From Bryopsis sp. KO-2023 (lineage: Eukaryota > Chlorophyta > Ulvophyceae > Bryopsidales > Bryopsidaceae), in NCBI GenBank assembly GCA_030272585.1, contig BSYQ01000015.1, positions 1,302,001 through 1,366,000 on the forward strand: a DNA stretch of 64,000 nt. Reading direction: 5' to 3'. Position numbers and translations under genes: made by a program. The notes below the pieces were generated by a model. It saw only the letters and a list, made by a program, of their open reading frames with translations. It was not told where the DNA came from and made no database searches. Positions 6,859 through 28,372 of the stretch are shown piece after piece (position 1 is the first letter of the stretch; every line of letters starts with the position of its first letter).

Positions 6859-6861
6859 AAA

Positions 6862-8300: not shown

Positions 8301-8794
8301 TGTAACCATCCTTTGGGTGCGCCTTGCAGGCGATGGGTCAGGTGTTTCTTAGCAGGAAACGCTGCAAATCGAAAACCTTATACCCTTTATCGTTTCAACT
8401 AGGAGGGCTCGGTGAGAGGTCGGAATACAAGAGCTTTGGACGACCAAAAGCGTGGAGACTGAGGCACAAGTCGAACATGAACAAAAAGTGGTTACAAGGA
8501 AGAATAAAAACCCCCTTCTCTTATAGGGTAAAAAGAGCCACTTCTTAGCTACTCATTTGTACAAAGTAGCTACCCCGTAGCTACCCATTTCTAATACCCT
8601 AGCTTCACCCAACTACCCTTTATTAACTATTACCAACCCTTACAAATTGGAGGTACTCAGTGAGAAATACTGAGTACTGTTTCCTAAGTTTCACTGTTTC
8701 TGATAACATAAGCAGGACTTCTGAACGTCCTTCCCAGTACTGCAAGAGGAGCTGGACCCTTCTCCTGCCACAGACCCTTAAAATGCAGGTCACA
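8301..8794 (-). repeat. Zeta 3' LTR (A2 487 bp + B2 7 bp)
   Basis: 8308-8794 equals 27137-27623 by eye in length (487 bp) and sequence. The outer end carries 7 extra bases, TGTAACC on the plus strand (8301-8307), absent from the 5' LTR. Inside, 8795-8803 reads GCTGTAACC, the B1 motif. Confidence 0.85.
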
Positions 8795-8795
8795 G

Positions 8796-9748
8796 CTGTA
8801 ACCCACTTCGTTTCCACTGTGAAGTACTCCGAATTTCATACCATCTACTCAGATGGTCTGCAACAAAATTGGCTTTCCCATCTATGTGTCTTACGGAGAT
8901 ACTTGAACAACCGCTGAACTGCAAAGTTTCTTTGATTCCCGTTACTGCTCGCAAAGTTCTCAAATCGTTAATCGGTGCTGCCTCTTTCCCCTCTTGGGTA
9001 AGGTGTGCCCATAAACTTTTCACTGCTGCCCAATTATCGGAAAAAATCTGAACAGCAGTTCCTCTCCACAAATCTGCGGGTATTTCCTTAACGGCGCTCA
9101 TGGCTGCCAATACTTCCCCCAAAAAACTTGAATGTTGTCCACTTATTTTTCCATGTCCGAGGTATAAAATCCTTCCCGAACCATCGGTCAAAATATACCC
9201 GAAATACTCTGAGGTGTCAATAGAAGCCCAATCAACGAACAACTTCCTTTGATTATCACCGGCAGAAAATGCTCGGCAATAGCAACGACTCAACCAACGT
9301 GATACCTTACTTTTCAGTTCTTCCTTTACCTCTTGTGGCGATACTTGATTGGCTTCCATCTTAGCCAAGAAATGCTGCATGTCCCATTCCAGAGTCGAGT
9401 TCTTGAAAGCATTCAGCAAACCGCGGAGCTGCTGAATCTCCCGCAGTTCTGCCGATCCCACCAGCTTGGCGATAGTTTCGTTCACTTTTTCCCACGGTAT
9501 ATCCGGGTGGAATTTTCCTTCTTGGATATGGAATCCGAGAAACTTTACCTCAGTTCCGCTGACGATTTTCCTCTGGTTGATCTGAAGTCCATACTCCTTT
9601 GAGGGACGTTTGACTTCGGCGGCTCTCTCCTATAGCCGCATTCCTCCAGCGATACTGCCATTTCCGCCATTTTAGTCTTCTGCGGAGGTACTAGAGTCCC
9701 GAAGACCTCCGGGTGTTTCCTCACCATTTCTTTCAGCGCTTCCGCCAT
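8796..9748 (-). pseudogene. Zeta RT-RNase H remnant with RT core deleted
   Basis: The minus-strand ATG at 9748 begins MAEALKEMVRKHPEVFG, as in the alpha pol. After NVPQRS the sequence jumps to LQINQRK-equivalent sequence, which removes about 550 bp relative to alpha (about 28531-29081), including the YMDD catalytic region, and shifts the frame. The break lies at a shared AAGGA(G/A)TAT, consistent with microhomology deletion. From about 9600 down the thumb and RNase H are preserved (LFVDWASIDTSEYFGYILTDG, about 9240-9180; HIDGKANFVADHLSRW near the end). The stop falls in the LTR-proximal palindrome. Confidence 0.85.
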
Positions 9749-9810
9749 GGACTCTTTTTCTTGTTCGGATCTAGTCAGGCCCGCCCGAAGTCCCCTTTCG
9801 ACGGGCCTTT

Positions 9811-9929
9811 TTAGTTTGATACCTCTCGGTCATTGAACTTGACCACCCCTTCGTGAGCAAAGGTTGCAACCTTGTAATTGCTCGGCAACTGCACTGGTAA
9901 GTCGTTCCAGTTCCCTATCTGCACGCGGA
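9811..9929 (-). pseudogene. Zeta gag-protease polyprotein, C-terminal piece
   Basis: Minus-strand continuation, beyond gamma, of the piece at 15201-15621. It encodes RVQIGNWNDLPVQLPSNYK and ends REVSN with TAA at 9811-9813. A stem-loop equivalent to that of alpha follows at about 9778-9810. Confidence 0.75.
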
Positions 9930-9935
9930 GATACT

Positions 9936-10522
9936 TGTAACCCATAATAGGGTCGTCGCCACCAATTTCGTCACACCCGCCACAGTGGTTTTACCACCAC
10001 ACTTGGAGGGTATATGGATAAAACGGAGGAGAGCGTGAGCTCTTCGGTCAGAAGTAAAAACGGCAAGAAGAGTGAAGACACAAGATAGAACTCAAGCAAA
10101 AAACAAGCTTACAATGAGAACGTTTGGTCTCTCCCTTTTAACCCCCAATCACTCCTTCCAAATAGGGTCCCGATAGCTTCCCGCTAAACTCCCCATAACT
10201 ACACCCTAGCTACCCTGGATTCCGTTCTCATCCTTACTAATCTTGACTACACCTCCCATACTCTCTCTCCACCTTTGGTTCATTCACCCATCATTTCACC
10301 CCTTTGCATCAGCTTGGATGGATCAAAAATGAATAAAAGAAAACATAAAACCCGTACAACGTCCGTCTTGTTGTGGCAGGACTGACTCCTTTTATTGTGC
10401 TGTGGCAGGACTGCTCCTTCACCACAGTCATTTCTGCACTGCTGCCACAGTCCCAGTTCTGTGGCAGCACTCCTCCTGTGGAGGTGACGAAATGGGTGGC
10501 GGCGACGTGGTTTGGGGTTACA
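9936..10522 (-). repeat. Gamma 3' LTR (A2 577 bp + B2 10 bp)
   Basis: 9946-10522 repeats 14618-15194. The outer 10 bases (9936-9945, ATGGGTTACA in element sense) are missing from the 5' LTR but equal the 10 bases preceding the GC at the inner edge (10525-10534). The LTR contains a long CTGCCACAG/CTGTGGCAG inverted repeat (about 10441-10470). Confidence 0.85.
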
Positions 10523-10782
10523 GCTGTAACCCATCTCTCCCTCCAGCCGAGACACTCTCAAGAGAAAGTCGAGGCGATAAATAAGAAAAACCGATTTATG
10601 AAACGATAGAAAAACTGCAAACGCAACCGATCGATGAACTATTTCCCATAAAACAGCCAAAGAAAGGCGGAGGGAAGTACTACCAAATCAAAATAAGTTT
10701 CTTTGTCATTTATCAAACCATTTCCATGAGGGGCCACTTCCGGGAGAGAAACCAGCACCAGCGTAGCCCTCCTCTCCAACTC

Positions 10783-12420
10783 TCACTTCCGCCGCAGGCG
10801 TGAAAGGGCATCGATATGTCGATGCTTCGCGCCGGACTGATATGTTACGAAGAAATCGTACTCTTGAAGACGGAGACTCCATCGAAGTAACTTGCTGCCG
10901 AGATCCTTCGCCGTTAGTAACCACACGAGGGCTCGGTGGTCGGTTTTCACCTCGAAACGGACGCCGTGCAAATATGGACGGAACTTCTCAATAGCCCAGA
11001 GTACGGTGAAGCATTCCCCTTCAACACTACTCCAATGTGTTTGTGGTCCAGACATCTTGATCGATGCATATGCAACGACTCTCTCTCCTTCGGGATATGG
11101 TTGAGAAAGAATGGCGGCTCCGGCGTGGGCAGACCAATCGGTCGTGAGAATGAACGGACGGCGGAAGTCGGGAAGGGTGAGGATCGGCCGTTGGATTAAC
11201 AACTTCTGGAGGGTCCGGAAAGCTTGGTCTGCGGCATTGGTCCAAGTCCACCTGGCAGCTTTCTTCAATAACTCGTACAAGGGTCGTGCGAGTTCAGCGA
11301 AACGGGGGATGAAACGCCGATAGAATCCCGTCAAACCAAGGAAATGGCGCACTTCTGCCACAGACTCTGGTGGTTGTAGTTTCTCCACTGCCGTGATGTG
11401 TCGTTGTAACGGCGCGACTTGACCCTTGAAGATTTCATGTCCCAAATACTCCACGTGTTGTGTCCCGAAAATGGATTTAGTCGGCGAAACTCGCATGTTT
11501 GCTTCTTCCAAACGTCGAAGTACTTCCGTTAGCAACCGAAGGTGTTCTTGGAACGTCGAAGCATATATGATGATGTCATCAATATATACCAACACACCTT
11601 GCCACAGCAAATCTCCGAGGATAGAGTCCACCAACCGCTGGAATGTATTCCCGCTGTTGCACATCCCCATCGGCATCCGTGTCCATTCATAAAGTCCGGA
11701 GCGGACTCGAAACGCACTCTTGGCGGCGGCATCCGCGGAAAGGGGCACTTGCCAATATCCGGCCTTCAGATCCAAGGACGAAAACCAACGGGCGTGGCGG
11801 AGTTGGTCGATCGCCTCGTCGACACGGGGGATCGGGTATTCGTCTCTCCGCGTGATGGCATTCAAGCGGCGATAGTCGATGCAAAATCGCAAACGATCAT
11901 CGGGTTTGGGGACGAGTACCACTGGTGCTGCCCAAGGACTCTTGCTGCGGCGGATGAGTCCAGTGTCCAAAAGATCCGCCACTTCTCTTTCCGCTACTTC
12001 ATGTTCCTTTTGCGAAAAGTAACGACCCCGTTGATGAATAGGGGGATGATCTCCGGTATCCACTTCATGTGTTGTGGCAGTAGTCGCCGTTGTCTCTTTC
12101 AACGTCCAAGCAAACCGTGAGAAGTATTGCCGCAATACCTTCCGCAAACCCCATATACGAGCCGAAGACAATTGATCGCCAAGAGGAATGGTACGAACCT
12201 TTTCTTCTGCCGTCCGTGTGTCTTCCAAGACTTGACGTGCACCAGTGCTCCAATGGAAGTCCTTCTCCAATTTTTGTGGAAGTTTCGCCAATGTATTTCT
12301 TTTAGTTTCCACCTCAGCCCCACATTGTCCTTTCCTTGGCGGCAGTAGGGCACCCGCTGTAGTGCCACCAAGGTTGTTGACGAGTGCTTCAAACGCACTG
12401 GCCAGTGGCGGGAATGCCAC
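10783..12420 (-). CDS. pol: Gamma reverse transcriptase-RNase H
   Basis: About 545 codons. RT motifs of the Ty3/gypsy type are present: PVVLVPKPD, RLRFCIDYRRLNAITRRDEY, FSSLDLKAGYWQVPL and the catalytic YIDDIIIYA, then YLGHEI and HFLGLTGFYRRFI. RNase H follows (LTTDWSAHAGAAI, then KTDHRALVWLL). The ORF ends RHIDALSRLRRK, where gypsy Pol proteins normally run on into the integrase zinc-binding domain; here a stop follows. The first codon of the open frame is GTG inside a hairpin that spans the overlap with gag, and the frame is +1 relative to gag, so expression by +1 frameshift is plausible. Confidence 0.9.
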   Translation of the reverse strand: MAFPPLASAFEALVNNLGGTTAGALLPPRKGQCGAEVETKRNTLAKLPQKLEKDFHWSTGARQVLEDTRTAEEKVRTIPLGDQLSSARIWGLRKVLRQYFSRFAWTLKETTATTATTHEVDTGDHPPIHQRGRYFSQKEHEVAEREVADLLDTGLIRRSKSPWAAPVVLVPKPDDRLRFCIDYRRLNAITRRDEYPIPRVDEAIDQLRHARWFSSLDLKAGYWQVPLSADAAAKSAFRVRSGLYEWTRMPMGMCNSGNTFQRLVDSILGDLLWQGVLVYIDDIIIYASTFQEHLRLLTEVLRRLEEANMRVSPTKSIFGTQHVEYLGHEIFKGQVAPLQRHITAVEKLQPPESVAEVRHFLGLTGFYRRFIPRFAELARPLYELLKKAARWTWTNAADQAFRTLQKLLIQRPILTLPDFRRPFILTTDWSAHAGAAILSQPYPEGERVVAYASIKMSGPQTHWSSVEGECFTVLWAIEKFRPYLHGVRFEVKTDHRALVWLLTAKDLGSKLLRWSLRLQEYDFFVTYQSGAKHRHIDALSRLRRK

Positions 12421-14551
12421 TGGCGGGACTCAATTTGCGCAAGGCACGGCCGTCATGTGTACGGAGGCGGTTGTCGAGATTGTTGCCCGCGATGATGGTA
12501 ATCTCCGCATTCGTCGGATTGAACAAATGACATTGGGCCACTTGTCCCGACGGGAAACGTACCGGCACCGCCACTCTTGTGTGTGCCGGGATTCGTCCTG
12601 ATTTGGCTGCCTCCGTGGTGCTCTTCCGCTGTGGTAGTCCTTCCGTAAACCGCACTCGTTTCTGCTGCTTTCCAGAGAGGAGCGGAACTTCTCCCCATTC
12701 ATCTTGTGATGTTTTGTATCGCAAGACTGATAAGCCGAGATCAATGATCGCCTCAGCCTTCTGCAACCAATCCACCCCGAGAAGGATGGCGTATGGCACT
12801 GTGTCCGAAACATGAATGTCCACCATATGTGTCGCTCCTCCAACTTTCACGGGAAAATCGGGAATAACGCCACGAGCAGCGGCGAGTTTGCCGTTGGCCG
12901 TCCTGAAACACACTTTTGACGGCTGTATGAGATGCAAAATTCCTGCCCTTTCTGCGGCTTTGGTGGCGAGAAGTGTTACACCAGCACCGGTATCCACAAT
13001 GCCCTTCTCAGCAGTTCCTCCAATCTTTATCCCTTGAATTTGCACAATCGCGGGGGTCGCTCTTGCCCCGCAATTCATCACGTCGATAGTGGAAATACTT
13101 GCATTCCACTGTTGTCCAATCCAATATCCGAAACCGACAACAAAGGTCAAAAGTGTCGAAATCCAAGTCACCCATGTCAATCGTGTGTTCTTCTTCTTTG
13201 GCTCCGGTGTCATAGTCGCCACAGTAGGGAAGAACTCGGGGGCAGAATCATCTTCCGGCATGGCCAAAACGGCAGGTTGCTCCATGATGTTCATATTGAT
13301 TTCATCCATCAGGTCTTGTACTCCGTTGTCAAATGTCGGCTCTGCCATGTGTGCCGGTGTCGTCATTCGCTTCAGAAATTCTTCTTTCAATTTGGGAGAC
13401 CAACGGAATAAATCGTGAAGACGAATTTGTACCACTTGTCGCAACAGTCCTTCCGGACTGAAGACGATTGGTGATGTAGCGGCACTGGTACCACTTGAAG
13501 GAGTCCAAGGTCTTCGATTCATCGGCCGTCGGGATCGTTGATCGACCTGCATCCTATCACCCACGAGAACATCTGCTTCTGCCATTTGCACATCTTTTGT
13601 CACCTCTGCGAATTGCTTCTCCAATAACCGGAGACGTTCCTCCCATCCTGTAGATGCATTTGGTTTTTCGGGTGTCGGCATTGTTGCCGGTGGAGTGAAC
13701 AGGGGTGTTGCACTTGTCGACGCCTGTGGCGGCGGTCCAAAAAGCGGGGTCATGGTGGCAATACTTGGCATTGCGAGTGCCGCCGGTGTGATCTGGCCCG
13801 CGTCTCGAAGGGCCCACATTTCCATCTCCGCCGCACGTTGCGCCACTGCCTCGAGGTTGGCGAAGGCCTGAACGCAAAGCCATGGGCGAAAATCCTGGCG
13901 TATTCCTTGGATGAAGTACTGGACCTGTTCTGCGGCGTGAGGTGCCACTGTGAGTTGGCGGAACAAGCTCTGTAGCCGATCCCGGTAAGTCATCACTGGC
14001 TCTCCGGCCATTTGGCGGCAGTTGTGCAACTGGTGAAGTAGATCCACTTGAGATAATCCAAAACGCGTTTGAAATGCAGTTCTCCAAGCCGCCCATGTCG
14101 TACCATCAAAAGCACCACCTCGGTCGGCCATCCATGATTGATGCCACGAAAGCGCATTCCCTCTCATCGCCTTCAACAACTCTTGTCCCATTTCTTCAGC
14201 GGACCAACTACACAAGCCTTTTGTGCTTTGTGCATGATCGAGCCAGTTGGCGGCTTTCGTCCCATATTCGCCATCAAATTTGTCCAAACATGGCTGCTTC
14301 CTTGTATTGGTCACCACCATCCTTGTTCCCACTACAGTTGGAAGTACTGTGGCAGGAGTTCCTGCGGCAGAAGGTGTTGAGGTCGAAGGCGCTCCGGTAG
14401 CGCTTGGAGTGGTTCCAACCTGGGACTCAACGGAATGGAATGAAGCACACGAGCTTGAGTTTGAGCTTGAACTTGTTAGCACACCTAGCCGTCGTCGAGT
14501 TTGCCGAAGAAGTGACTTGAAATGCTCGAAATGAGACTCGGGTAATCCCAA
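12389..14551 (-). CDS. gag: Gamma Gag-protease polyprotein (720 aa)
   Basis: The N-terminal coil and Ser/Pro-rich region is followed by a retrotransposon Gag core (WLDHAQS, LKAMRGNALSWHQSW, LFRQLTVAPHAAEQVQYFIQG), a Pro/Thr-rich linker and a basic stretch (RRPMNRRPW). A hydrophobic segment of about 20 residues (WVTWISTLLTFVVGFGYWIG, around residue 460) comes next, then an aspartic protease with VDTGAGVTLL (Asp near residue 520) and PYAILLGVDWL. I see no CCHC knuckle. A membrane-like helix between Gag and protease is unusual for Ty3-type elements. The ORF ends inside the 9-bp hairpin that overlaps pol. Confidence 0.85.
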   Translation of the reverse strand: MGLPESHFEHFKSLLRQTRRRLGVLTSSSSNSSSCASFHSVESQVGTTPSATGAPSTSTPSAAGTPATVLPTVVGTRMVVTNTRKQPCLDKFDGEYGTKAANWLDHAQSTKGLCSWSAEEMGQELLKAMRGNALSWHQSWMADRGGAFDGTTWAAWRTAFQTRFGLSQVDLLHQLHNCRQMAGEPVMTYRDRLQSLFRQLTVAPHAAEQVQYFIQGIRQDFRPWLCVQAFANLEAVAQRAAEMEMWALRDAGQITPAALAMPSIATMTPLFGPPPQASTSATPLFTPPATMPTPEKPNASTGWEERLRLLEKQFAEVTKDVQMAEADVLVGDRMQVDQRSRRPMNRRPWTPSSGTSAATSPIVFSPEGLLRQVVQIRLHDLFRWSPKLKEEFLKRMTTPAHMAEPTFDNGVQDLMDEINMNIMEQPAVLAMPEDDSAPEFFPTVATMTPEPKKKNTRLTWVTWISTLLTFVVGFGYWIGQQWNASISTIDVMNCGARATPAIVQIQGIKIGGTAEKGIVDTGAGVTLLATKAAERAGILHLIQPSKVCFRTANGKLAAARGVIPDFPVKVGGATHMVDIHVSDTVPYAILLGVDWLQKAEAIIDLGLSVLRYKTSQDEWGEVPLLSGKQQKRVRFTEGLPQRKSTTEAAKSGRIPAHTRVAVPVRFPSGQVAQCHLFNPTNAEITIIAGNNLDNRLRTHDGRALRKLSPASGIPATGQCV
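12401..12424 (-). other. Gamma gag/pol-overlap hairpin
   Basis: Perfect 9-bp inverted repeat GCCAGTGGC / GCCACTGGC with a 6-nt loop, located exactly where gag and the +1-frame pol overlap. A further copy of the motif forms the palindrome CACTGGCCAGTG just downstream in element sense, so alternative pairing is possible. Likely role, by inference: recoding or reinitiation signal. Confidence 0.6.
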
Positions 14552-14605
14552 TTGCTCACGAAGTCGGCGGGCTCCGGTCGGATCGTCGGGATCAATGTTG
14601 TCCTA

Positions 14606-14617
14606 GCTCCGAAACCA
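14606..14617 (-). other. Gamma primer-binding site
   Basis: Minus strand TGGTTTCGGAGC immediately inside the 5' LTR. Confidence 0.85.
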
Positions 14618-15194
14618 AATAGGGTCGTCGCCACCAATTTCGTCACACCCGCCACAGTGGTTTTACCACCACACTTGGAGGGTATATGGATAAAACGGAG
14701 GAGAGCGTGAGCTCTTCGGTCAGAAGTAAAAACGGCAAGAAGAGTGAAGACACAAGATAGAACTCAAGCAAAAAACAAGCTTACAATGAGAACGTTTGGT
14801 CTCTCCCTTTTAACCCCCAATCACTCCTTCCAAATAGGGTCCCGATAGCTTCCCGCTAAACTCCCCATAACTACACCCTAGCTACCCTGGATTCCGTTCT
14901 CATCCTTACTAATCTTGACTACACCTCCCATACTCTCTCTCCACCTTTGGTTCATTCACCCATCATTTCACCCCTTTGCATCAGCTTGGATGGATCAAAA
15001 ATGAATAAAAGAAAACATAAAACCCGTACAACGTCCGTCTTGTTGTGGCAGGACTGACTCCTTTTATTGTGCTGTGGCAGGACTGCTCCTTCACCACAGT
15101 CATTTCTGCACTGCTGCCACAGTCCCAGTTCTGTGGCAGCACTCCTCCTGTGGAGGTGACGAAATGGGTGGCGGCGACGTGGTTTGGGGTTACA
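14618..15194 (-). repeat. Gamma 5' LTR (A1)
   Basis: 577 bp. It starts TGTAACCCC (element sense) at 15194 and ends ...CGACCCTATT next to the primer-binding site. It lacks the ATGGGTTACA found at the outer end of the 3' LTR. Confidence 0.85.
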
Positions 15195-15200
15195 GATACT

Positions 15201-15621
15201 GCCCGCGATAATTAAGTCCGGCATGGATGGCGATACTGCTCCCAGTTGGCACTACTGGCTTCAACTCGATTTCCTTGGAAGCCTTGATAGGGATCCACAC
15301 GGTTGACAACGAGTGAGGTCGAAGGACGAGATTTCGCCCCAGCGGCACTGAATAGTAGTTCTCGGCAACGTTGATTATCTTCAAGTGACGCTTGGCAGAA
15401 GTGAGATCCAGGCTTTCTCCTTCCACTGGTTCTCTTTCTGGAAGAACCACTTCTTCTGGCAACCGTGTTACCATGCACTGCAGCGTTTTTCCGGATCCGA
15501 TACTGATCCTCTTCCTCCGTACATCAATAACCGCGTTCAAGGAGTTGAGTATCGGCATTCCAACCAATAACTCATAGCCGGGCTCCTTCATCACATAAAA
15601 ATCTGCAGAAACCTTCTTCCC
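15201..15621 (-). pseudogene. Zeta gag-protease polyprotein, middle piece
   Basis: Encodes GKKVSADFYVMKEPGYELLV through SSIAIHAGLNYRGQYL, matching alpha 27765-28192. It is cut at its 5' side by element B (after the CTCGGT duplication) and at its 3' side by gamma (GATACT). The frame is intact across the piece. Confidence 0.85.
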
Positions 15622-15678
15622 CTCGGTTGTAACCTCCCAAAACGTCGTCTTGACCGCTCTTGTCACACACGCCACAGT

Positions 15679-15959
15679 TGTAACCCCAAACCACGTCGCC
15701 TCCACCGATTTCGTCGTCCCTGCAGCGGGAGTAGGTGTGTTTGGTAGTAATCGGGAAGGACAAGACTTAGTTGGGCTAGATTGGGTTGATCCGGCTTCGA
15801 GTAGACCTTGATTTGGATCAAGTACATTTGTGATGGGATGTGGGAAGATATATTGGACGAGTTTATGGACGTTGGACCCTTTTTGCTTTGGATTGTAAGT
15901 CTTCCTTTGGAGTGGGACTGTGGCGTGTGTGACAAGAGCGGTCAAGACGACGTTTTGGG
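15679..15959 (+). repeat. Element A 5' LTR
   Basis: 281 bp, TGTAACCCC to ...ACGTTTTGGG, directly followed by TGGTTTCGGAGC. Confidence 0.88.
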
Positions 15960-15971
15960 TGGTTTCGGAGC
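15960..15971 (+). other. Element A primer-binding site
   Basis: TGGTTTCGGAGC abutting the LTR with no spacer. Confidence 0.85.
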
Positions 15972-16319
15972 CAACAAGGAGACTTTTTAGCTCTCCTGAT
16001 CCAAGGAAGAACCAAGGAAGGCTTGCAACCCTTAGCAAGGGTCGAGACAAGTGCAAGGGAGGTCTTTCCCTAGTGGAAGTGAAGTGAGCACTTGCAGGAG
16101 TGAAGAGAAGGACCTACAGGGGTATTCGCTCCTCAAAGGAACACAAGGTCGAGCTTGAGTCGCTCAAAAGGTTAAAGAGAAGGCGAAGAAGTTCTGTGGT
16201 TCTTGGGATCTGTGTTAGGTTAAGATCTTAACCTAAGGGTTGGTCAGGAGTGCGCTTGCGCCGCTTTTGTCTTGTTTTTCTGTGAGTTGCGTGGTGGCGT
16301 TTTCAAAAGAAACGAGAGG

Positions 16320-16625
16320 CGAGAGTTGGTGCTGTGTAGCTACTGCCGAGGTTTTATAGGTTTTCGTTTCCAGTGGTGTTTCGCAGTAGGAGTGGTATTG
16401 CCGTTTTGCAAAAGAAGCGAGAAGGCGAGACGGTGCTGTGTAGCGACTGCCGAGGTTTCATGGGTTTTCGTTTGCAGTGGCGTTTTTCGCAGTAGGAGTG
16501 TTGGCTGAGTAGAGATCTGTCGCTGAGAAAGAAGGCGAGAGTCAGTGTTGTGTAGCGACTGCCGAGGTTTTATAGGTTTTCGTTTGCAGTGGCGTTTTCC
16601 GAAGTAGGAGTGTTGACTGAGCACA
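16320..16625 (+). repeat. Tandem repeat of about 115 bp in element A leader, 3 units
   Basis: Units share CTGCCGAGGTTTTATAGG and GCAGTAGGAGTG. Element B carries four units in the mirrored position (about 24590-25010), so copy number varies between elements. Confidence 0.7.
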
Positions 16626-19600
16626 GATCTGTCGCTGGCGCGTCGCTACAGCAAGGTCGGCTGTATTGTTTGGGTGTTTTTCTTTTCGCAGAGTCGCTCT
16701 TTTCTAAGAAACAAGATCTCCAGCAGTTTTCTTTGATCGTGTGAGGTGTCGTTCCAGTGGTTCGTAAGGTGGACGAGACTTTGTTTTGGTTACTTTGTTT
16801 TGGTGTCGGAAGTCTACTTTGTTTGAAGCCGACAGTATTATTGTGGGACGTTCAAGTCGGCGATGGTTACAGCGTAAGGGACTTTTTCGAAGTAGATCTG
16901 TAGGAGTCTGTTGTTTGTCTTGGAAACAGTGGAGACGGAAGTTTTTGCCGTTGAAGTGTTTGAGAAAGAACGACGAAAAAGAAAAAAAGATCTCACTGCG
17001 TTGAAAGCAGAAGTGAGTGCGAAAGCGGTTGCCCCACACTCACACTTTTGTGGGTAGGAGTCGGCGACGGACAGAAAGAGGTTTTCTTTTGGGCGCACGT
17101 TGTTTTTCTTTTATACGAGGAAAAGAGTAAGACTGTCGTTACCCTAGTGGGGAGAGTGCGTGGCGTTACTGCTTGGAGCGATCTTTACAGGAAAAGCGAG
17201 GTTAATCTTCAACCTTTGGTTGGAGCGCAGCAAAACAGGTTGCTTGGGTCGAAAAGATCAGTGCACTGAGGTTGTTGGAGGAGTTGCGCTGTGCAGGGTT
17301 GCATAACCAGGCGACTAAAGTGAGGGTGCGCTACGAGGAAAGCAAAAGTGTGACAAGCGCGAAAACACGTCGACTGGGGACGTCGTGTGGATCGACTCAC
17401 ACAGAACACGAGCAAATGGGAGGTCGGATCTCTTCCACCTGGTGCGCAAAGTCGTTGGAGTGGGAGTGGTTGCAACCACAACTTTTGTTTCATTGTCGCT
17501 GGTGGGGCGCGAGTGTGTCGGCCAGTTTCGCGGACTTATGATTTGTTTCACGAGGAAAGGTCTATTTTGAGAAGTGTTGGACGGAGTGTTTGAAATGTTG
17601 GTGTTTTGGGCTAGATTTATGACAAGATTTGCAGTGATCTACGAATAGTCCAGAAGTGCAGTGCAGCAGTATCATTTTTGTTGACTTGACATATCAGAAC
17701 TGATTTTTACAGTATTCGAATTTGTGGAGATTTTGCCACACCATTTCCTTTGGCAGAAGTCTTGGTTGAGAGGGAGAATTTCCATCACTTCTACAATGGA
17801 AATTCAGCAAGAGTAAAGAAAGAAAGAAAAAAAAAAAAAAAAAGGGAAGAAGATTATAGATGGAAAAAAAAAAAAAAAAAATCAAAATTCTAAAGAACAG
17901 CAAGAGATGGAAGAGTAGGAATGGTGTTTCTGAGTTGAAAGATGGAAGTATTTCCACTCAAGTGCGGCACTGTTTGATGACTTGCAGTTGGCATATGTGA
18001 GTGCTCCTGTTGATTTGCTTCTAGTTGTTTCGTCTGGCTGGGATCTGGAAAGAGTGATAAAAGTGTGTAGGCGAGAGCGTCTGGGAAGCGGTGATACTCG
18101 TTTGGGGTTTTAGACTCGGGAAGTAGGGTCGTGTTGGGTTTCTCCCATGTGGTTACTTTGGTACCACTTCTTGGGCGGTGTCGCAGTCCGCAGTATTACT
18201 GGGGTTTTCTTGTTTTCGAGTTTTGGTGAAACCTGTAGGAGAGAAACGAAAGTTATTGCGGAGTGTTTCTCATTAAAGCAGGTAATGATGCAAGATAGGG
18301 GCTTGTTTCAGGTCGCACCCATAGAGCGGATGCTCCAGTGTTTCTGGTTTTGACTTTCGGAGTATTCGCTGGGGGACGTTTTGACAGCGTAACTGTGGGT
18401 AGAAGGGATCGACAGAAATGCGGCAGGGAGTTTAAGGTCGAGTTTTTGGGCCCGTGTTTCTTTTTGGGAGAGTGAGTGTTGTGGACGCGGAAGTTCGACA
18501 GTGTTTCAAAAGGACAGAGTGATTGTGTCTTCTTGGCAGTAATGAACTTTCTTGTGGAAGGGTAGACATTTTTGGTGAGTGGTGAACGTTCTATTGTCGA
18601 CGATAGTTGCGATACAATATCTTTTGGAAGAGGTGTTTCTTTTGCACAACAAGGATTGCGGAAAAAAAAAAAAATAAAAAAAAAATGGCAGAAGTACTGA
18701 TTGATACGGGAAAAGTCAAGGACCAGCAGTTTATCAAGGCGGGATTAGCTACCCCGAGTTTATAAGTTGCGGTGATTGAGCGGACCAGGGGTGAGTGTGT
18801 GTAGAGGAAGGACTGGGAACGTGTTTTTAGATGGTTTGTTGGCGACCAATCAAGCGGCAGCCACGGAAAGTTCTGAGCATTATGGGGTGCTCTGTATTTC
18901 TGTTGGCGGTCGTGGGATGAGAGCTGATTTATGAAATACTGTGGGTAGTATCTTTTAGGGGGATAGGAAATGGAAAACGGCTTTGAAACAGAAAGACCAG
19001 TCGTGATCAGAGGCAAGAACGACAGCAGTACTGAGCATCAAAAAGACAGCTCAGAATGGAAGGAGTACGCCCTAACAATATTGCCAAGGAGGTTGTGGGT
19101 GGTACCAACAGTATGAGAAGATAGAGGTACAAGGTTTTTCAGCTAAGGAAAAGATAAGGGAGCAGTTGAAAAATATATATATATATATGGTGTGTGGACG
19201 AAGAGAAGAAAAAAAAAAAAAAAGAGGGGGAAAATATATGGAAAAAGTCTTTCAGGGATTGAGGTATTTGTTCTATCTCCAGTATTTCTGATAGGAACAG
19301 TGGCAGGTCTGCTTTTGCACTCAATAGTGACCTGTTGAGGGTATTTGAGGCTAGTGCTGGAGGTCACCATTTGGTTAAAATGGCCAGCAAAAGTCTGTTT
19401 ACTAGCAAGAGTGAGAGTGGGCGTGAGTAAAGGGGTTTTTCTTGTTACCTCTGCGGTAGTGACGTTAAGAAGAAAGACGTTCTAACCTTTGTCAGATGGG
19501 AGTTGCGGAACAGCAGGTACAGAGTAAGGGGTACCTTGTCTGAAAGGGAAAAAGAAAGAGTCACAGCGTCAGGTAGACGTGCCTGGGCGACTCTAGAGTG

Positions 19601-19739
19601 GAAAAGTGCGTCGACAGCAAAAGTGGTGCGACTGGAAACTACGTTTGCTGTTCAGGAGTTACAGTAAACGTGGTCAGGAAATGGAAGTAGCGTTTGGGAC
19701 GTTGTTGAAGGAAGAGGATAATGGATATCAAGATACAAA

Positions 19740-20620
19740 GAAGAAAGAGTGATTGTGGAAGAGCCATGGCAGGTTCCAAGATGAGCCGGTGGTTATAAAA
19801 GCAAGCGAGGAGGAGTCCTCAAGGAAGAGTGATTGTTGAAGAGCCGTGGCAGGTTCCAAGATGAGCCGGTGGCCATAAAAGCAAGCGAGGAGGAGTCCTC
19901 AAGAAAGAGTGATTGTGGAAGAGCCATGGCAGGTTCCAAGATGAGCCGGTGGTTATAAAAGCAAGCGAGGAGGAGTCCTCAAGAAAGAGTGATTGTGGAA
20001 GAGCCATGGCAGGTTCCAAGATGAGCCGGTGGTTATAAAAGCAAGCGAGGAGGAGTCCTCAAGGAAGAGTGATTGTTGAAGAGCCGTGGCAGGTTCCAAG
20101 ATGAGCCGGTGGCCATAAAAGCAAGCGAGGAGGAGTCCTCAAGAAAGAGTGATTGTGGAAGAGCCATGGCAGGTTCCAAGATGAGCCGGTGGTTATAAAA
20201 GCAAGCGAGGAGGAGTCCTCAAGAAAGAGTGATTGTGGAAGAGCCATGGCAGGTTCCAAGATGAGCCGGTGGTTATAAAAGCAAGCGAGGAGGAGTCCTC
20301 AAGGAAGAGTGATTGTTAAAGAGCCGTGGCAGGTTCCAAGATGAGCCGGTGGTTATAAAAGCAAGCGAGGAGGAGTCTTCAAGGAAGAGTGATTGTGGAA
20401 GAGCCATGGCAGGTTCCAAGATGAGCCGGTGGTTATAAAAGCAAGCGAGGAGGAGTCTTCAAGGAAGAGTGATTGTGGAAGAGCCATGGCAGGTTCCAAG
20501 ATGAGCCGGTGGTTATAAAAGCAAGCGAGGAGGAGTCCTCAAGGAAGAGTGATTATGGAAGAGCCGGGGCAGGTTCCAAGACGAGCCGGCGGTTATAAAA
20601 GCAAGCAAGAAGGAGTATAC
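19740..20620 (+). repeat. 80-bp tandem array with TATA box in each unit, about 11 copies
   Basis: Period is exactly 80 bp. Nearly every unit contains GGTTATAAAAGC (GGCCATAAAAGC in two) and GAGGAGGAGTC. A three-unit higher-order block of 240 bp is duplicated (19820-20059 and 20060-20299). The last unit is degenerate. Short ORFs across it are by-products of the repeat. Confidence 0.85.
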
Positions 20621-21684
20621 AAGAGACGACGCAGCTGTGGTTATGTTTATACAAATCAGACGATGGATTGAGGTACTGTGAAGATATTTTCGCTGCAGCG
20701 TAAATATTAGGTGGAAGTGTCGCTGTTCAGCAGCAAATGATGGAAGTAGCGCCACAGATGTAGTGTCCAGGTGGCAGCTCAGCTCAAAAGAAGCTTGGAA
20801 ACCGCGCCACAGACGTGATGTCTGGATGGCTGCAACCTCAGCTTTTGGAGCTTACGAAGAGGAAGAGAGATGATGAAGAGAAAGAGAGATGATGAAGAGA
20901 AAGAGAAAGCGTGGACAGGAGAGAGTCGCGTAAGAAAGAGGCACAGAGTGTGACCTGATGAAGAGAAAGAGAGACACTGGGTGTGTCCTGACGAAGAGAG
21001 AAGAGAGAAGAGAGAAGAGAAAGAGATATGCATATATGAGAATTGGTGTGCAGACGTGCCACCAGAAGAGAAGATACAAGCGCCGTATCCTGCGTGGTGG
21101 CGGCAGCTGAACTGGAGGTATCCATATGGTGTTGAGAATGGCGAGATCAAAAAAAAAAAAAAGAATGACAACAATGGTTAGAGAGCCTTCCAAAGGTGTG
21201 AACTGGTATGGAGATTTAAGCGCTTTGGGAAGGGTGACCAACCCTGTAGCAGCTTGTCTTATTTGGGAAGATATGAGTGTGCGGAAAGATTGGTTTTTGG
21301 TAATGGAAAGAGTGGGTATCCTTGTTGAACGAGCGAAGATGCGCTGAGGGCAGAGAACTCTCGAGCAGCATTATTGCGAAAGTAATGAGCGGTATCGATT
21401 CGGGGAAGAAAAAAAAAAAAAAGAAATTTGAGACAAATAGGATGGTGCATGTGCGTTTGTGGGCCAAATAGAGAGAAACCAGTGTTTGTGGCCGCACTGG
21501 AGGAGTCTCTTAAACGCAGAAGTGCTATTGTGTTTGCTTGAATTAGAAAAAGGTTTAGTTGGTTTCATCGATTTATGCTATATTGGTGGCGTTTTTCTTA
21601 TATTTTGCCTTTTTGTTTTTGTTAGTGTATTTTCTCCACACTTGGAGGGCCAAGTGTTGGTTATGGGGGGGAAAAGGTTACAGC

Positions 21685-21974
21685 TGTAACCCCAAACCAC
21701 GTCGCCTCCACCGATTTCGTCGTCCCTGCAGCGGGAGTAGGTGTGTTTGGTAGTAATCGGGAAGGACAAGACTTAGTTGGGCTAGATTGGGTTGATCCGG
21801 CTTCGAGTAGACCTTGATTTGGATCAAGTACATTTGTGATGGGATGTGGGAAGATATATTGGACGAGTTTATGGACGTTGGACCCTTTTTGCTTTGGATT
21901 GTAAGTCTTCCTTTGGAGTGGGACTGTGGCGTGTGTGACAAGAGCGGTCAAGACGACGTTTTGGGAAGGTTACA
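21685..21974 (+). repeat. Element A 3' LTR plus 9-bp B2
   Basis: 21685-21965 repeats the 5' LTR. The outer AAGGTTACA is extra and equals the 9 bases before the GC at 21683-21684. Confidence 0.88.
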
Positions 21975-21980
21975 CACAGT

Positions 21981-22218
21981 CCCACTCCAAAGGAAGACTT
22001 ACAATCCAAAGCAAAAAGGTCACAACGTCCATAAACTCGTCCAATATATCTTCCCACATCCCATCACAAATGTACTTGATCCAAATCAAGGTCTACTCGA
22101 AGCCGGATCAACCCAATCTAGCCCAACTAAGTCTTGTCCTTTCCGATTAGTACCAAACACACCTACTCCCGCTGCAGGGACGACGAAATCGGTGGAGGCG
22201 ACGTGGTTTGGGGTTACA
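21981..22218 (-). repeat. Element B 3' LTR, larger part
   Basis: 238 bp; the remaining 43 bp plus B2 lie at 15628-15678 beyond element A. The two parts add to 281 bp, the length of the 5' LTR. Confidence 0.85.
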
Positions 22219-24589
22219 GCTGTAACCTTTTTCCCCCCATAACCTACACTTGGTCCTCCAAGTGTGGAGAAAATCATTTTCCACTAGTATAGCCAATGTG
22301 TAACTATAAGAAAAACAACTTCACCACCTTGGCAAAACTGCCGAAACAACACATAACATCAAAACGAAACAACTAGAAGCAAATCAAAATAAGCACTCCT
22401 ACAAACCAACTGCAATTCATCACACACTGCTGTACTTCTGTGGAAATACTTCCATCTTTCAACTCAGAAACACCATTCCTACCCTCCCACTTAGCCTCAC
22501 TTCCTCTACCCAACTGCGACGCCCTCTTGCCTCTTCTCCTGCCAGTCGTCCGTACTGTCGTGTTCAACGCTTCACTCGCGCCACCGTACTGTCGATCGCT
22601 GGTCTTGCCCTACCGCTTGGCAGGTCCCTTGCCCCTTGGGTCTTCACCGCCTTCCAAACCATCTATAGACTTTGTCGATGTTCCTTCTCAGGCGCAGTTC
22701 ACTTCTGCACCTTCGCAGTGTCCTGTTTTGCAGGCGACTCTCTCTTTTTCCAACTGCTTCTTCCAAATCTCATTGTTCACTCTTCTTCCAGGTTTCGCTC
22801 GTTGTTCACTCTTCTTCCTCCAGCAGCGCCACCAATGCTACTTCCATCTTCTGACCACATTTCCTGTTCATGGTTTCCAGTCGCAACACTCTTGCTGTCG
22901 ACGCACTTTTCCACTGTAGAGTCGCCCAGACACTTCTACCACTTCTACCCTGTAGCTGCTGTTTCGCAACTTTGTCAAATAGGAGTCACGAAAGGTCTTT
23001 CTTTCAATGTCACTTCCGCAGAGGAAAAACCCCTTCACTCACGCCCACTCCTACTCTTGCTAGTAAATAGACTTCTTTTGGCCATTATAAACAAATGGTG
23101 ACCTCCAGCACTAGTCCAAAATACCCTCAACAAGCCACTATTGAGTGCAAAAGCAGACCTGCCACTGTTCTATTTCAACTATCCAGTTTTTCTGAACTTC
23201 TGCAGATACCCAATCCTTGAAAGACTCCTTCCATATAAATTATTTTTTTAATTTTTTTCCTTTCCCTTTACTCCTGCAGGAGTTCCATAACTTCTGCAAC
23301 TAATCCTCAATCTCAATCAAGACTTCTATCATACCATTTCTTCTTCTTACTCAATCTCCATAAGTCTCGACATATGTCTTGCAACTCAATTAAGTCCACA
23401 AACAATACCAGGCCTAGTGAAACTTGGACCTGACCCACAACTGAGCTGTTGCTGCAAATAAAAATCTGCAGATTTTCTGTCGATTTTTTTTTTTTCACAC
23501 CTGCACCAGTTCGAACACTGCGAAAATCGGTTCTCGACCAAACCAGTTCTACTGCACCGCAAATCGTGTCCTAAGTCGAACCCAAAACACCAACATTTCG
23601 AACACTCCGTCCAGCACTTCTCAAAATAGACCTTTCCTCGTGAAAAAAATCATAAGTCCGCGAGACTGGCCGACACACTCGCGCCCCACCAGCGACAATG
23701 AAACAAAAGTTGTGGTTGCAACCACTCCTACTCCAACGACTTTACGCACCAGGTGGAAGAGATCCGACCTCCCATTTGCTCGTGTTCTGTGTGAGTCGAT
23801 CCACACGACGTCCCCAGTCGACGTGTTTTCGCGCTTGTCACACTTCTGCTTTCCTCGTAGCACACCCTCACTTTAGTCGCCTGGTTGTGCAACCCTGCAC
23901 AGCGCAACTCCTCCAACAACCTCAGTGCACTGATCTTTTCGACCCAGGCAACCTGTTTTGCTGCGCTCCAACCAAAGGTTGAAGATTAACCTCGCTTTTC
24001 CTGTAAAGATCGCTTTAAGCAGTAACGCCACGCACTCTCCCCACTAGGGTAACGACAGTCTTACTCTTTTCCTCGTATAAAAGAAAAACAACGTGCGCCC
24101 AAAAGAAAACCTCTTTCTGTCCGTCGCCGACTCCTACCCACAAAAGTGTGAGTGTGGGGCAACCGCTTTCGCACTCACTTCTGCTTTCAACGCAGTGAGA
24201 TCTTTTTTTTCTTTTTTTTTCGTCGTTCTTTCTCAAACACTTCAACGGCAAAAACTTCCGTCTCCACTGTTTCCAAGACAAACAACAGACTCCTACAGAT
24301 CTACTTCGAAAAAGTCCCTTACGGTGTAACCATCGCCGACTTGAACGACCCACAATAATACTGTCGGCTTCAACCAAAGTAAACTTCCGACACCGAAACA
24401 AAGTAACCAAAACAAAGTCTCGTCCACTTTACGAAACACTGGAACGACACCTCACACGATCGAAGAAAACCGCTGGAGATCTCGTTTCTTAGAAAAGAGC
24501 GACTCTGTGAAAGGAAAAACACCCCAAACAATACAGCCGACCCTGCTGTACGCGCCAGCGACAGATCTCTACTCAGTCAACACTCCTAC

Positions 24590-25010
24590 TTCGGAAAACG
24601 CCACTGCAAACGAAAACCTATAAAACCTCGGCAGTCGCTACACAACACTGACTCTCGCCTTCTTCTTTCTTAGCGACAGATCTCTACTCAGTCAACACTC
24701 CTACTTCGGAAAACGCCACTGCAAACGAAAACCTATAAAACCTCGGCAGTCGCTACACAACACTGACTCTCGCCTTCTTCTTTCTTAGCGACAGATCTCT
24801 ACTCAGCCAACACTCCTACTGCGAAAAACGCCACTACAAACGAAAACCCATGAAACCTCGGCAGTCGCTACACAGCACCGTCTCGCCTTCTCGCTTCTTT
24901 TGCAAAACGGCAATACCACCCCTACTGCGAAACGCCACTACTGGAAACGAAAACCTATAAAACCTCGGCAGTAGCTACACAGCACCAACTCTCGCCTCTC
25001 GTTTCTTTTG
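24590..25010 (-). repeat. Tandem repeat of about 115 bp in element B leader, 4 units
   Basis: Reverse-strand counterpart of 16320-16625, each unit with CCTATAAAACCTCGGCAG (plus-strand reading) or a close variant. Confidence 0.7.
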
Positions 25011-25341
25011 AAAACGCCACCACGCAACTCACAGAAAAACAAGACAAAAGCGGCGCAAGCGCACTCCTGACCAACCCTTAGGTTAAGATCTTAACCTAAC
25101 ACAGATCCCAAAAACCACAGAACTTCTTCGCCTTCTCTTTAACCTTTTGAGCGACTCAAGCTCGTCCTTCTATTCTTTTGAGGAGCGAATACCCCTGTGG
25201 GTCCTTCTCTTCACTCCTGCAAGTGCTCACTTCACTTCCACTAGGGAAAGACCTCCCTGCACTTGTCTCGACCCTTGCTAAGGGTTGCAAGCCTTCCTTG
25301 GTTCTTCCTTGGATCAAGAGAGCTAAAAAGTCTCCTTATTG

Positions 25342-25353
25342 GCTCCGAAACCA
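25342..25353 (-). other. Element B primer-binding site
   Basis: Minus strand TGGTTTCGGAGC abutting the 5' LTR. Confidence 0.85.
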
Positions 25354-25634
25354 CCCAAAACGTCGTCTTGACCGCTCTTGTCACACACGCCACAGTCCCA
25401 CTCCAAAGGAAGACTTACAATCCAAAGCAAAAAGGTCACAACGTCCATAAACTCGTCCAATATATCTTCCCACATCCCATCACAAATGTACTTGATCCAA
25501 ATCAAGGTCTACTCGAAGCCGGATCAACCCAATCTAGCCCAACTAAGTCTTGTCCTTTCCGATTAGTACCAAACACACCTACTCCCGCTGCAGGGACGAC
25601 GAAATCGGTGGAGGCGACGTGGTTTGGGGTTACA
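25354..25634 (-). repeat. Element B 5' LTR
   Basis: 281 bp, a few substitutions from the element A LTR. The outer end GGTTACA (plus strand) abuts the CTCGGT duplication. Confidence 0.85.
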
Positions 25635-25640
25635 CTCGGT

Positions 25641-27059
25641 GCCTATCTTGATGGAAGAAATGCTGCCTTCGGTTTCCACAGTCCTGCCATCAGCAGTTTT
25701 TATCTTGCCGGGTCCTCCCTCTTGTGTCGGCGAGACTCCCAATCTCTTTGCCAATCCGGAAGACATCACATTCACCGCGGCTCCCGTGTCGATGATTGCA
25801 AATTCCTCCACGCTCTCGGCAGCAGTGGATACAAGGGACATTTTGGTGGTAAGCAGTCCTGCTGATCTCCCCACGGTCAATACTTCTTTGTAAGTTTTGC
25901 TTGTCGTGATTCCTCCACATCCGGTGGATTTGGGAATCTTCTTTTGTTTGGGTCCTGTAGCAGTTTTGCTCTGGCGGTACTGCGTTCTTTCAGACTTCCT
26001 CCACTTCTTCGTTGGCACTTTCTCCACAGGTGCAACCGAGATAGTCCCGACATAGTTTGTCTCGGGTTGGTAGAGGTCTTCTTCTTCCAATCCCTCAAAA
26101 TCATTGTGATCTTCGAAATAGGGTTCCTCGAATTGGACCGTTCTTGTGGCCATTCCACGATATGGTGTACCACTTCTCCTGTATCCTCCAGTGTTTCTGG
26201 AACCACTGTTGCCTGCATTTCCGCTGCTTCCGTTTCTGGCCAACCAGCTCAAAAATCCACGAAATCTTCTGTCTCTCTTGCTCAATTGAGTGATGAAAAA
26301 CTTGAGCGAGCCGAATGGTACCTCTTTTAGCTTCTGCTGCCAATCAGTTGGCAGCATATCTCCCTGTCTCACAGGTGTTTCCGTTTCTGCTGTTGCAGTA
26401 CTGCCCATCGCTTCTCCTACGGCTCCAATGTCCATCGCGTCCCCTTGGAGTTTCGCTGTTGTATCTTCGAGGCGAAACACGTTGATGATCCATTCCTTTG
26501 CGTTTGCGATAGCGTCTACGTATGTGGCGGTCACCATTGCTGCCGTTCCGACTCTGCAATCCTTTGGAAGTAGTTTGAAGAAAATTTCTTTTATTTTCGC
26601 ATCATCCACATCCTGTTCCACTGCCATTGCTTCTTGGCGAAACTGCTCGATCCACTGCAGCCACGTTTGCCCCTTTTTCTTGACACATTTGCGAAGGACT
26701 GCTTCCTTTTCTGAAGGACTCTCCAAGATAGCTCTTTCCGTTACGAGAAATCCTGCCACGTTCATCTTTAACGCATCAATATTTCCAGCCACTGCTGCTG
26801 GAGAAGCTGCGGGCCTCCCGTGTGATCCTGGAGGATACGCTGCGTCGAAGTCGGCCATCAGAACATTGTTAACTTCGTACAGTATTGCCAAAATATTCTC
26901 TCCGGGTCCTTCTGGGACATAGTGGTCCACCACTGATGCGCAGAACTGCTGATATGTCGCGTAGATCCTTGAGCGCTGAAACGCATACCGGAAATTTCTG
27001 GAAGTGATAGTCTCATATCGACATATCTTATCCAGAGATGGTGATGGTATCCCCGCCAT
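25641..27059 (-). pseudogene. gag: Zeta Gag and protease N-terminal part (cut by element B)
   Basis: Open from the 5' LTR; the first likely ATG is at 27059 (MAGIPSPSLDK). The alpha-helical Gag core (NILAILYEVNNVLMADFDAA, KCVKKKGQTWLQWIEQFRQE, KLLPKDC) is followed by DAMDIGAVGE, a Gly/Ser/Arg stretch (about residues 285-310) in place of a CCHC zinc knuckle, an acidic segment, a Lys-rich segment and the protease motif FAIIDTGAAVNVMSSGLAKR. The frame is intact up to IKIGTE, where element B interrupts it. This is the best template for the damaged alpha copy. Confidence 0.85.
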
Positions 27060-27124
27060 TCTTCCTTGTAGTCTTTGGAGTAGTCTCCCACGAAAACTTA
27101 AGTTCTCCAGAACGCTGTAACCTG

Positions 27125-27136
27125 GCTCCGAAACCA
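27125..27136 (-). other. Zeta primer-binding site
   Basis: Minus strand TGGTTTCGGAGC abutting the 5' LTR. Confidence 0.85.
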
Positions 27137-27623
27137 ATCCTTTGGGTGCGCCTTGCAGGCGATGGGTCAGGTGTTTCTTAGCAGGAAACGCTGCAAATCG
27201 AAAACCTTATACCCTTTATCGTTTCAACTAGGAGGGCTCGGTGAGAGGTCGGAATACAAGAGCTTTGGACGACCAAAAGCGTGGAGACTGAGGCACAAGT
27301 CGAACATGAACAAAAAGTGGTTACAAGGAAGAATAAAAACCCCCTTCTCTTATAGGGTAAAAAGAGCCACTTCTTAGCTACTCATTTGTACAAAGTAGCT
27401 ACCCCGTAGCTACCCATTTCTAATACCCTAGCTTCACCCAACTACCCTTTATTAACTATTACCAACCCTTACAAATTGGAGGTACTCAGTGAGAAATACT
27501 GAGTACTGTTTCCTAAGTTTCACTGTTTCTGATAACATAAGCAGGACTTCTGAACGTCCTTCCCAGTACTGCAAGAGGAGCTGGACCCTTCTCCTGCCAC
27601 AGACCCTTAAAATGCAGGTCACA
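27137..27623 (-). repeat. Zeta 5' LTR (A1, 487 bp)
   Basis: Same as 8308-8794 by eye. It begins TGTGACCTGC in element sense, a one-base variant of TGTAACC. It shares a CTGCCACAG motif with the alpha and gamma LTRs, but the body is otherwise different. Confidence 0.85.
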
Positions 27624-28310: not shown

Positions 28311-28312
28311 AA

Positions 28313-28344: not shown

Positions 28345-28372
28345 AACTAGATCCGAACAAGACAAAGAAGCT

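Follow-up and report, generated by a model that had tools for sequence, protein, structure and literature searches.

LTR retrotransposons with split ends in Bryopsis sp. KO-2023, and the case for their integration from joined cDNA ends

This work concerns a group of long terminal repeat (LTR) retrotransposons in the chlorophyte Bryopsis sp. KO-2023, met in a 64,000-nucleotide stretch of contig BSYQ01000015.1 (the window, C15:1302001-1366000; C-numbers denote contigs, and L-numbers such as L026 or L035 individual genomic stretches that were read). Their two LTRs differ in a regular way, namely that the elements read A1-internal region-B1-GC-A2-B2, wherein A1 and A2 are the same LTR sequence, A1 abuts the primer-binding site (PBS), and A2 is followed by 7-10 bp (B2) that follow, family by family, the bases beside the purine-rich tract upstream of the 3′ LTR (B1). 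This asymmetry is real, recent and common to many families, and it extends far beyond the window. We propose, with somewhat more confidence than doubt, that the group is of the Ty3/gypsy type of LTR retrotransposon and integrates from end-joined DNA rather than from a simple linear complementary DNA (cDNA).

In four elements of the window (gamma, A, B and zeta), A1 is directly followed by the primer site TGGTTTCGGAGC, and A2 by B2 and then by a 6-bp target-site duplication (TSD); element B has the same layout as the others and carries element A nested in its 3′ LTR. Rereading the sequence bore out every coordinate that a first-pass annotation had given for these four. The window holds two more split elements, epsilon, seen by its 3′ part, and eta, the sixth, which starts outside the window, ends at 7284 and is broken up by a conventional element, iota. 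No mismatch separates A1 from A2 over 281/281 bases in A, 577/577 in gamma and 487/487 in zeta, and further mismatch-free pairs span 531 (L035) and 530 bases (L026); judged from such pairs, the insertions are recent. When L042 and L024 were compared, an LTR pair was not found between them. The TSD is 6 bp, as the annotation had it, in all eight copies read at both ends (gamma, A, B, zeta and four of eta). The features of the window are, in window coordinates:

14618..15194, minus strand: gamma 5′ LTR (A1), 577 bp, begins TGTAACC; TSD AGTATC (minus strand) at 15195-15200
14606..14617, minus: gamma primer site TGGTTTCGGAGC, directly behind A1
12389..14602, minus: gamma open frame, gag and aspartic protease (Pfam Retrotrans_gag, gag-asp_proteas)
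10783..12429, minus: gamma open frame, reverse transcriptase (RT) and RNase H (RVT_1, RT_RNaseH), without integrase domain
10535..10544, minus: gamma purine tract GGAGGGAGAG, immediately 5′ of B1, putative plus-strand primer
10525..10534, minus: gamma B1 ATGGGTTACA, sequence read
10523..10524, minus: gamma GC spacer, sequence read
9946..10522, minus: gamma 3′ LTR (A2), same as A1
9936..9945, minus: gamma B2 ATGGGTTACA; TSD 9930-9935
15679..15959, plus: element A 5′ LTR, 281 bp; TSD CACAGT at 15673-15678
15960..15971, plus: element A primer site, sequence read
21665..21675, plus: element A purine tract G7A4, the final As being part of B1
21674..21682, plus: element A B1 AAGGTTACA, sequence read
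21685..21965, plus: element A 3′ LTR (A2), LTR pair measured
21966..21974, plus: element A B2 AAGGTTACA; TSD CACAGT 21975-21980
25354..25634, minus: element B 5′ LTR; TSD 25635-25640
25342..25353, minus: element B primer site, sequence read
22221..22228, minus: element B B1 AGGTTACA, preceded by GGGGGGAAAA
21975..22218, minus: element B 3′ LTR, first part; the remainder extends to 15636, past nested element A
15628..15635, minus: element B B2 AGGTTACA; TSD 15622-15627
27137..27623, minus: zeta 5′ LTR, 487 bp, begins TGTGACC; TSD 27624-27629
27125..27136, minus: zeta primer site, sequence read
8797..8803, minus: zeta B1 GGTTACA, preceded by GGAAACGAAGTG
8308..8794, minus: zeta 3′ LTR (A2), LTR pair measured
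8301..8307, minus: zeta B2 GGTTACA, equal to B1 and not to GGTCACA, the reverse complement of its own left end; TSD 8295-8300
28292..29875, plus: epsilon open frame, RT, with weak RNase H below the Pfam cut-off, extending into B1; without integrase domain
29862..29868, plus: epsilon B1 GGTTACA, preceded by GGAAACGAAGTG
29871..30338, plus: epsilon 3′ LTR (A2); 3′ part read, 29862-30345
30339..30345, plus: epsilon B2 GGTTACA, sequence read
2232..2238, plus: eta B1 GGTTACA, preceded by GGAGGAGGGGAGT; eta starts outside the window at C15:1292229
2241..2590, plus: eta 3′ LTR, first part, continuing past iota to 7276
7277..7284, plus: eta B2 TGGTTACA, one added T; TSD TCCGGC 7285-7290, identical to the six bases left of the 5′ LTR (L044)
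2591..7091, minus: iota, conventional LTR element, TGATA..TATCA, 230-bp LTRs; TTT, then PBS 6858-6847; 5-bp TSD AAAGG

The bases that precede GGTTACA in B2 mirror those of the element's own B1; gamma has ATG there, a gamma variant ACG, and elements A and B a single A as a rule. The gamma B2 is ATGGGTTACA (starting ATGGG) at 4/4 ends, and in the gamma-like copy at C6:4163265, where B1 reads ACGGGTTACA (ACGGG), B2 is likewise ACGGGTTACA, so that the tracking of B1 by B2, which the first-pass annotation had put forward for testing, holds in this variant as well. All five zeta 3′ ends show GGTTACA, despite the left end TGTGACC, and so do 34 of 41 in eta, with an extra T in five and an extra A in two; for both families the base preceding GGTTACA is ambiguous, as the same sequence would result if B began one base before it and the two ends overlapped by one base where they meet. 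The B1 of A and B ends AAAA-GGTTACA, with a fifth A in B; seven of nine ends have A-GGTTACA as their B2, one has AA and one GA, the last at C11:1252183, where its own B1 has AA. The AA of element A is a single case, and three other A/B copies with a B1 of G7A4 carry one A, so that A versus AA does not serve as the family mark it was taken for. An extra G stands between A2 and B2 in the eta copy L032, whose U5 (unique 5′) end is mutated. Altogether 12 of 88 tallied 3′ ends (40 + 5 + 41 found by patterns, plus L032 and L045) have one base beyond the family's usual form (T in 7, A in 3, G in 2), and three more ends read outside the patterns (L001, L033, L034) have no added base. The earlier statement that B2 copies B1 is thus right family by family and fails as strict base-for-base identity. 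Imprecise joining of ends, addition without a template or a base left from the primer would each give such an added T, A or G.

Two further sources of B2 were considered and rejected. A fold-back copy of the left end would give GGTCACA in zeta and TGGGGTTACA in gamma, neither of which was seen, and B2 is not TGGTTTCG, as it would be if the primer RNA were copied at the right end, although a lone extra T could stem from the primer. It is also very improbable that B2 is not remade in each cycle but has long been fixed in the 3′ LTR, where recombination or gene conversion among 3′ LTRs maintains it. Conversion among LTRs is common; however, B2 is present in insertions whose two LTRs are identical and which have TSDs of their own, it mirrors B1 family by family, and the one-base variants differ among copies within one family.

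The same ends recur throughout the genome searched (91 Mb, 28 contigs). The palindrome GGTTACAGCTGTAACC occurs 123 times and its reversed control not once, which is not chance; the pattern with purines upstream, RRRRNRRRRNNGGTTACANNTGTRACC, gave 127 matches and its control none; and a purine tract flanks one side of 50/50 palindromes among the matches listed (50 of 123). Junction patterns built for ten LTR-end classes (3 of 83 rows in one search were discarded as chance) found 79 ends with the LTR followed by TGGTTTCG and 68 with the LTR followed by GGTTACA, prefixed or not, and 46 of these 68 have an LTR-PBS end 2.5-16 kb upstream on the same strand and in the same family. Such patterns detect two end forms only, and a 5′ LTR bearing B would be classed by them as a 3′ end; therefore the weight lies on 28 unselected B1-GC-A2 junctions in the stretches read, 24 of which end directly in B2, two in B2 behind a nested element, and two (C1:296051 and C3:713520) in a PBS. 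At C3:713520 the LTR concerned is the inner one of a tandem dimer, whose units measure 12,467 bp. Tandem dimers of eta lie at C3:700515-725472 and C6:4696595-4721774, each with an inner LTR common to both units and then a PBS. The asymmetry of 5′ and 3′ LTRs described in the first-pass annotation accordingly holds at 26 of 28 junctions. Its refuting case, 5′ LTRs with B before the PBS, was not encountered: in the stretches read, none of 27 distinct LTR-B2 joints has a PBS within the next 25 bases, and 11 distinct LTR-PBS joints have zero bases between the two, two of these LTRs also following a B1.

In each family read, B1 starts at or just behind a purine-rich tract, which is GGAGGGAGAG followed by ATGGGTTACA in gamma, GGGGGGGAA(A) followed by A(A)GGTTACA in A and B, GGAAACGAAGTG followed by GGTTACA in zeta and epsilon, where the tract is not purely purine, and GGAGGAGGGGAGT followed by GGTTACA in eta. 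In other LTR elements a purine tract primes plus-strand DNA. A strict tRNA-arm pattern for the primer gave no match, and a relaxed one matched, in 19 copies, a tRNA-like arm with the PBS complement at its end. This repeat (L046 and 18 other places) ends CAGAGTTCGAGTCCGAGCTCCGAA and continues in L046 as ACCAAAAAT, that is, the exact PBS complement, CCA and an A tail; it may have arisen from the primer RNA by retroposition. ARAGORN and Rfam made no tRNA call for the one copy examined (L046), and its T-stem is unpaired, so the primer is a putative one. The conventional element iota shares the primer-site sequence, has TTT between LTR and PBS, no extra 3′ bases and a 5-bp TSD; the contrast, of one element only, argues that the split layout does not simply follow from the primer site or the host.

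Based on these ends, we propose the following cycle. First, a minus strand primed by a tRNA-like RNA, which in this scheme would end GCTCCGAAACCA, would begin at the PBS, and the right end of the cDNA would be the bare A end; A2 does end at the same base that abuts the PBS in A1. Second, the plus strand would begin behind the tract upstream of B1, giving the left end B-GC-TGTAACC...A1, so that the linear cDNA would read B-GC-A1...A2, with B at the wrong end under standard replication; as the first-pass annotation rightly objected, tRNA-primed replication as usually drawn would lose B2 in every round. Third, the right end of A2 would be joined to the left end, in a 2-LTR circle or between two cDNAs or in a concatemer, to form A2 followed by B-GC-TGTAACC-A1, at times with one base added. 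Fourth, the integrase would cleave GGTTACA^GC-TGTAACC after CA on both strands; with the 2-bp spacer, two recessed CA ends with 2-nt 5′ overhangs would result, like those of retroviral 3′ processing, and insertion with a 6-bp stagger would yield A1-PBS-...-B1-GC-A2-B2, the product that the genome shows. The resemblance of the B1-A2 junction to two ends joined through GC had already been pointed out, and it stands.

The bases at the right end speak for this proposal. B2 follows B1 and is absent from U5 at the PBS, and would therefore come from the left end of the cDNA; the U5 end of a linear cDNA cannot have supplied it, which makes a joined junction hard to avoid. The right end thus holds bases derivable only from the cDNA left end, which would be the carrier of B, and the A2-B2 boundary coincides with the A1-PBS boundary, with 0 or 1 extra base. 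A template switch without ligation, wherein the plus strand leaves the end of A2 for the 3′ end of a minus strand, at the left end of its own cDNA or of a different one, and recopies B-GC-A, after which the integrase trims at the palindrome, would account for B2, for its start and for the added bases as well as joining does, and reverse transcriptases add untemplated bases and switch templates. However, it requires a regular end-to-end jump in nearly every copy, and we regard it as unlikely, though as the strongest of the alternatives; genomic sequence does not distinguish it from ligation.

For the enzyme, the 6-bp TSDs in 8/8 copies together with the Integrase_H2C2 and rve domains of eta fit a DDE integrase. 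Many eta palindromes have a PF00665 match about 4 kb upstream, and in L026 a 683-aa RT/RNase H frame precedes a 1184-aa frame with Integrase_H2C2 and rve, whose best relative in the PDB is prototype foamy virus (PFV) integrase (E 2.7e-22), followed by that of Ty3 (8.9e-14). This frame (L026:3868-7422) continues for more than 700 residues past the core, proline- and glutamine-rich, with a cysteine- and histidine-containing stretch near its end. A tRNA-Leu(AAG) gene (L032:9564-9645) lies about 0.5 kb from the end of one eta copy. Within the split-element group an integrase was seen only in eta, and other LTR families of the genome also carry rve genes. The gamma frames encode gag, protease, RT and RNase H; those of epsilon protease and RT, with RNase H below the cut-off (E 0.083); and those of zeta protease, with RNase H below the cut-off (E 0.053) and an RT split by nested elements. 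No integrase domain was found in the scanned frames of gamma, zeta and epsilon (8 of 11 window frames of at least 250 aa; the zeta RT was not scanned whole), and between the last frame and the purine tract gamma has about 240 bases, zeta and epsilon no bases at all; a hidden integrase in these three was accordingly rejected. The interior of element A holds an 80-bp tandem repeat in about 10 copies (19661-20680), a region without any frame of at least 250 aa in the window's frame list. A tandem array of about 467-bp units occupies 30340-35000 and perhaps further, starting where epsilon ends or no more than a few bases away.

By these features the group resembles Ty3/gypsy elements in the RT, RNase H and H2C2/rve of eta, where RT and RNase H are followed by rve (L026) as they are not in gamma or epsilon, in the gag and protease of gamma, in the PBS directly after the 5′ LTR, in the purine tract near the 3′ LTR and in the short TSD. 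It differs in that B1-GC lies between purine tract and 3′ LTR, and that the LTRs, identical in their A parts, are not co-terminal, the 3′ LTR exceeding the 5′ LTR by B2. Split direct repeats of the form A1-ORFs-B1-A2-B2 (ORF, open reading frame) are those of the Ngaro/DIRS type of tyrosine-recombinase (YR) retroelements (PMC8547959; this and the following articles are cited from excerpts), and the likeness had been drawn in the first-pass annotation. The genome does hold 18 matches to PF00589 (e.g. at C1:2095402). Ten of them lie in open frames of 1,332-1,401 aa, and these are probably YR retroelements. YR retroelements are not known to leave a TSD, whereas the split elements have 6-bp TSDs in 8/8 copies, a scan of 8 of the 11 long frames of the window and of two eta frames showed no PF00589, eta has an rve integrase instead of a tyrosine recombinase, a PBS is present, and B is just 7-10 bp. 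The TSDs and rve therefore contradict membership, which we consider highly improbable; the parallel stands for the shape of the repeats and not for the enzyme, the group's integrase being DDE-type.

A DNA transposase acting on TGTAACC...GGTTACA as terminal inverted repeats, with the retroelement features left from a composite ancestor, is likewise hardly probable. Such an origin would suit the terminal inverted repeats, whose 7 bp match perfectly except for one base in zeta, the subterminal inverted repeats of most families and the lack of an integrase domain in the scanned zeta, epsilon and gamma frames. However, LTRs are identical within copies yet differ between families, as RT copying gives, the RT/RNase H frames of gamma and eta are open, PBS and purine tract are retained, and the integrase that was found is of retroviral type.

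The RT of gamma is 46% identical to that of eta, and the RT of epsilon 29% over 200 residues. Termini common to such different RT lineages suggest one shared integrase, and that of eta would probably serve the families without their own. More tentatively, and leaning slightly to doubt, we can extend the joined-end proposal to a guild of LTR retrotransposons, of at least two distant RT lineages with one shared integrase, that would have given up the U5 attachment site and integrate only via the joined LTR-LTR junction, the plus-strand start having shifted upstream, whereby the bases lacking at the right would come from the left end; the circle-junction model would then be obligatory in nature.

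Several points weigh against integration from joined ends. The proposal is built on genomic ends, from which the intermediate itself, linear or circular, is deduced, and the purine tract and primer RNA were assigned by position alone. B1-GC-A2 holds the same 16-bp palindrome as the proposed junction, yet its use was not detected in eta, so the palindrome alone cannot be the signal; unless the model is wrong, the integrase would have to recognise a second element as well. The evidence is a search for one-LTR or permuted eta insertions (purine tract-GGTTACA-TSD), none of which was found with a pattern of three of the four possible next bases and one tract form, thus excluding TSDs that start with G and other tract variants; AGG[AG][AG]GGGAGT-GGTTACA with A, C or T as the next base matched one copy only, in which the spacer is mutated. 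Nor was a fixed LTR-LTR junction recognised among the palindromes examined: the 50 listed matches of GGTTACAGCTGTAACC and 84 of 86 rows compared from the junction search are flanked by a purine tract, and the other two, both on C9, are something else. The LTR-LTR junction pattern TTTGG-GGTTACA also equals an antisense LTR start, which most of its 109 matches are, and TTTGT-GGTTACA-GC is absent among the matches listed (100 of 109). The two C9 palindromes (4150760 and 4151236; L047, L048) are full copies of GGTTACAGCTGTAACC without purine tract and bound a 490-bp stretch (to 4151251), which begins TGTAACCCCAAACC and ends GGTTTGGGGTTACA (inverted LTR-start ends) and whose outer flanks resemble LTR-interior and RNase H sequence.

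An inverted repeat of the LTR ends is a plausible second recognition element for most families. The outer 45 bp inside U5 and U3 (unique 3′) form imperfect inverted repeats, whose score was reached by 0 of 1000 shuffles in A, 1 in B (A and B have one common LTR sequence and are not independent here), 0 in gamma, 0 in epsilon and 4 in eta2; the same test is weaker in zeta (30/1000) and eta3 (85/1000), and iota has no such repeat (796/1000). The purine-tract side scored 10-18 in the seven families aligned, below the LTR end in six. To the objections must be added that in eta, though it encodes the integrase, the LTR-end repeat is not significant (315/1000) and is outscored by the purine-tract flank (18 vs 15), and that retroviruses integrate linear DNA (PMC11054761).

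The joined-end proposal has precedents in part. For retroviral integration, the 2-LTR circle junction model (Panganiban and Temin 1984), which later gave way to linear precursors, likewise takes joined LTR ends with twofold symmetry as the integration site and a TSD-flanked product; it differs in that linear DNA is active for retroviruses, whereas the right-end bases of split elements cannot derive from the U5 end of linear cDNA, and in the spacing, 4-base extensions being predicted for the retroviral junction versus the 2-bp spacer here (PMC11054761). PFV integrase, nearest to that of eta among PDB chains, cleaves the palindrome of the 2-LTR junction in vitro and leaves a 2-nt 5′ overhang, as proposed here (PMC1180852); that evidence is from in vitro and mutant work, and on our reading of the excerpt the right-end bases of PFV are LTR-encoded, not copied from beside a purine tract. 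In human immunodeficiency virus (HIV) under an integrase inhibitor, variants of the 3′ polypurine tract have U5-end sequence beside U3 in place of the tract, which the authors trace to 2-LTR circle junctions (PMC11680205). They may offer a formal parallel for the first capture of B1, although they are, as excerpted, an effect in cultured virus with no regenerated 3′ extension. Searches of the open-licence PMC literature, judged by titles and the starts of abstracts, brought up no LTR retrotransposon with the split layout.

The natural use of joined LTR ends as an integration precursor was debated for retroviruses and settled for linear DNA. The genomic ends of the split elements record from which cDNA end each base came, and the question thereby becomes testable by sequencing. 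If the proposal is true, it could explain how several families, some of them without an integrase gene, have one set of termini, and it would provide a mechanistic link from LTR retrotransposons to circle-junction DNA transposons such as the IS911-type elements.

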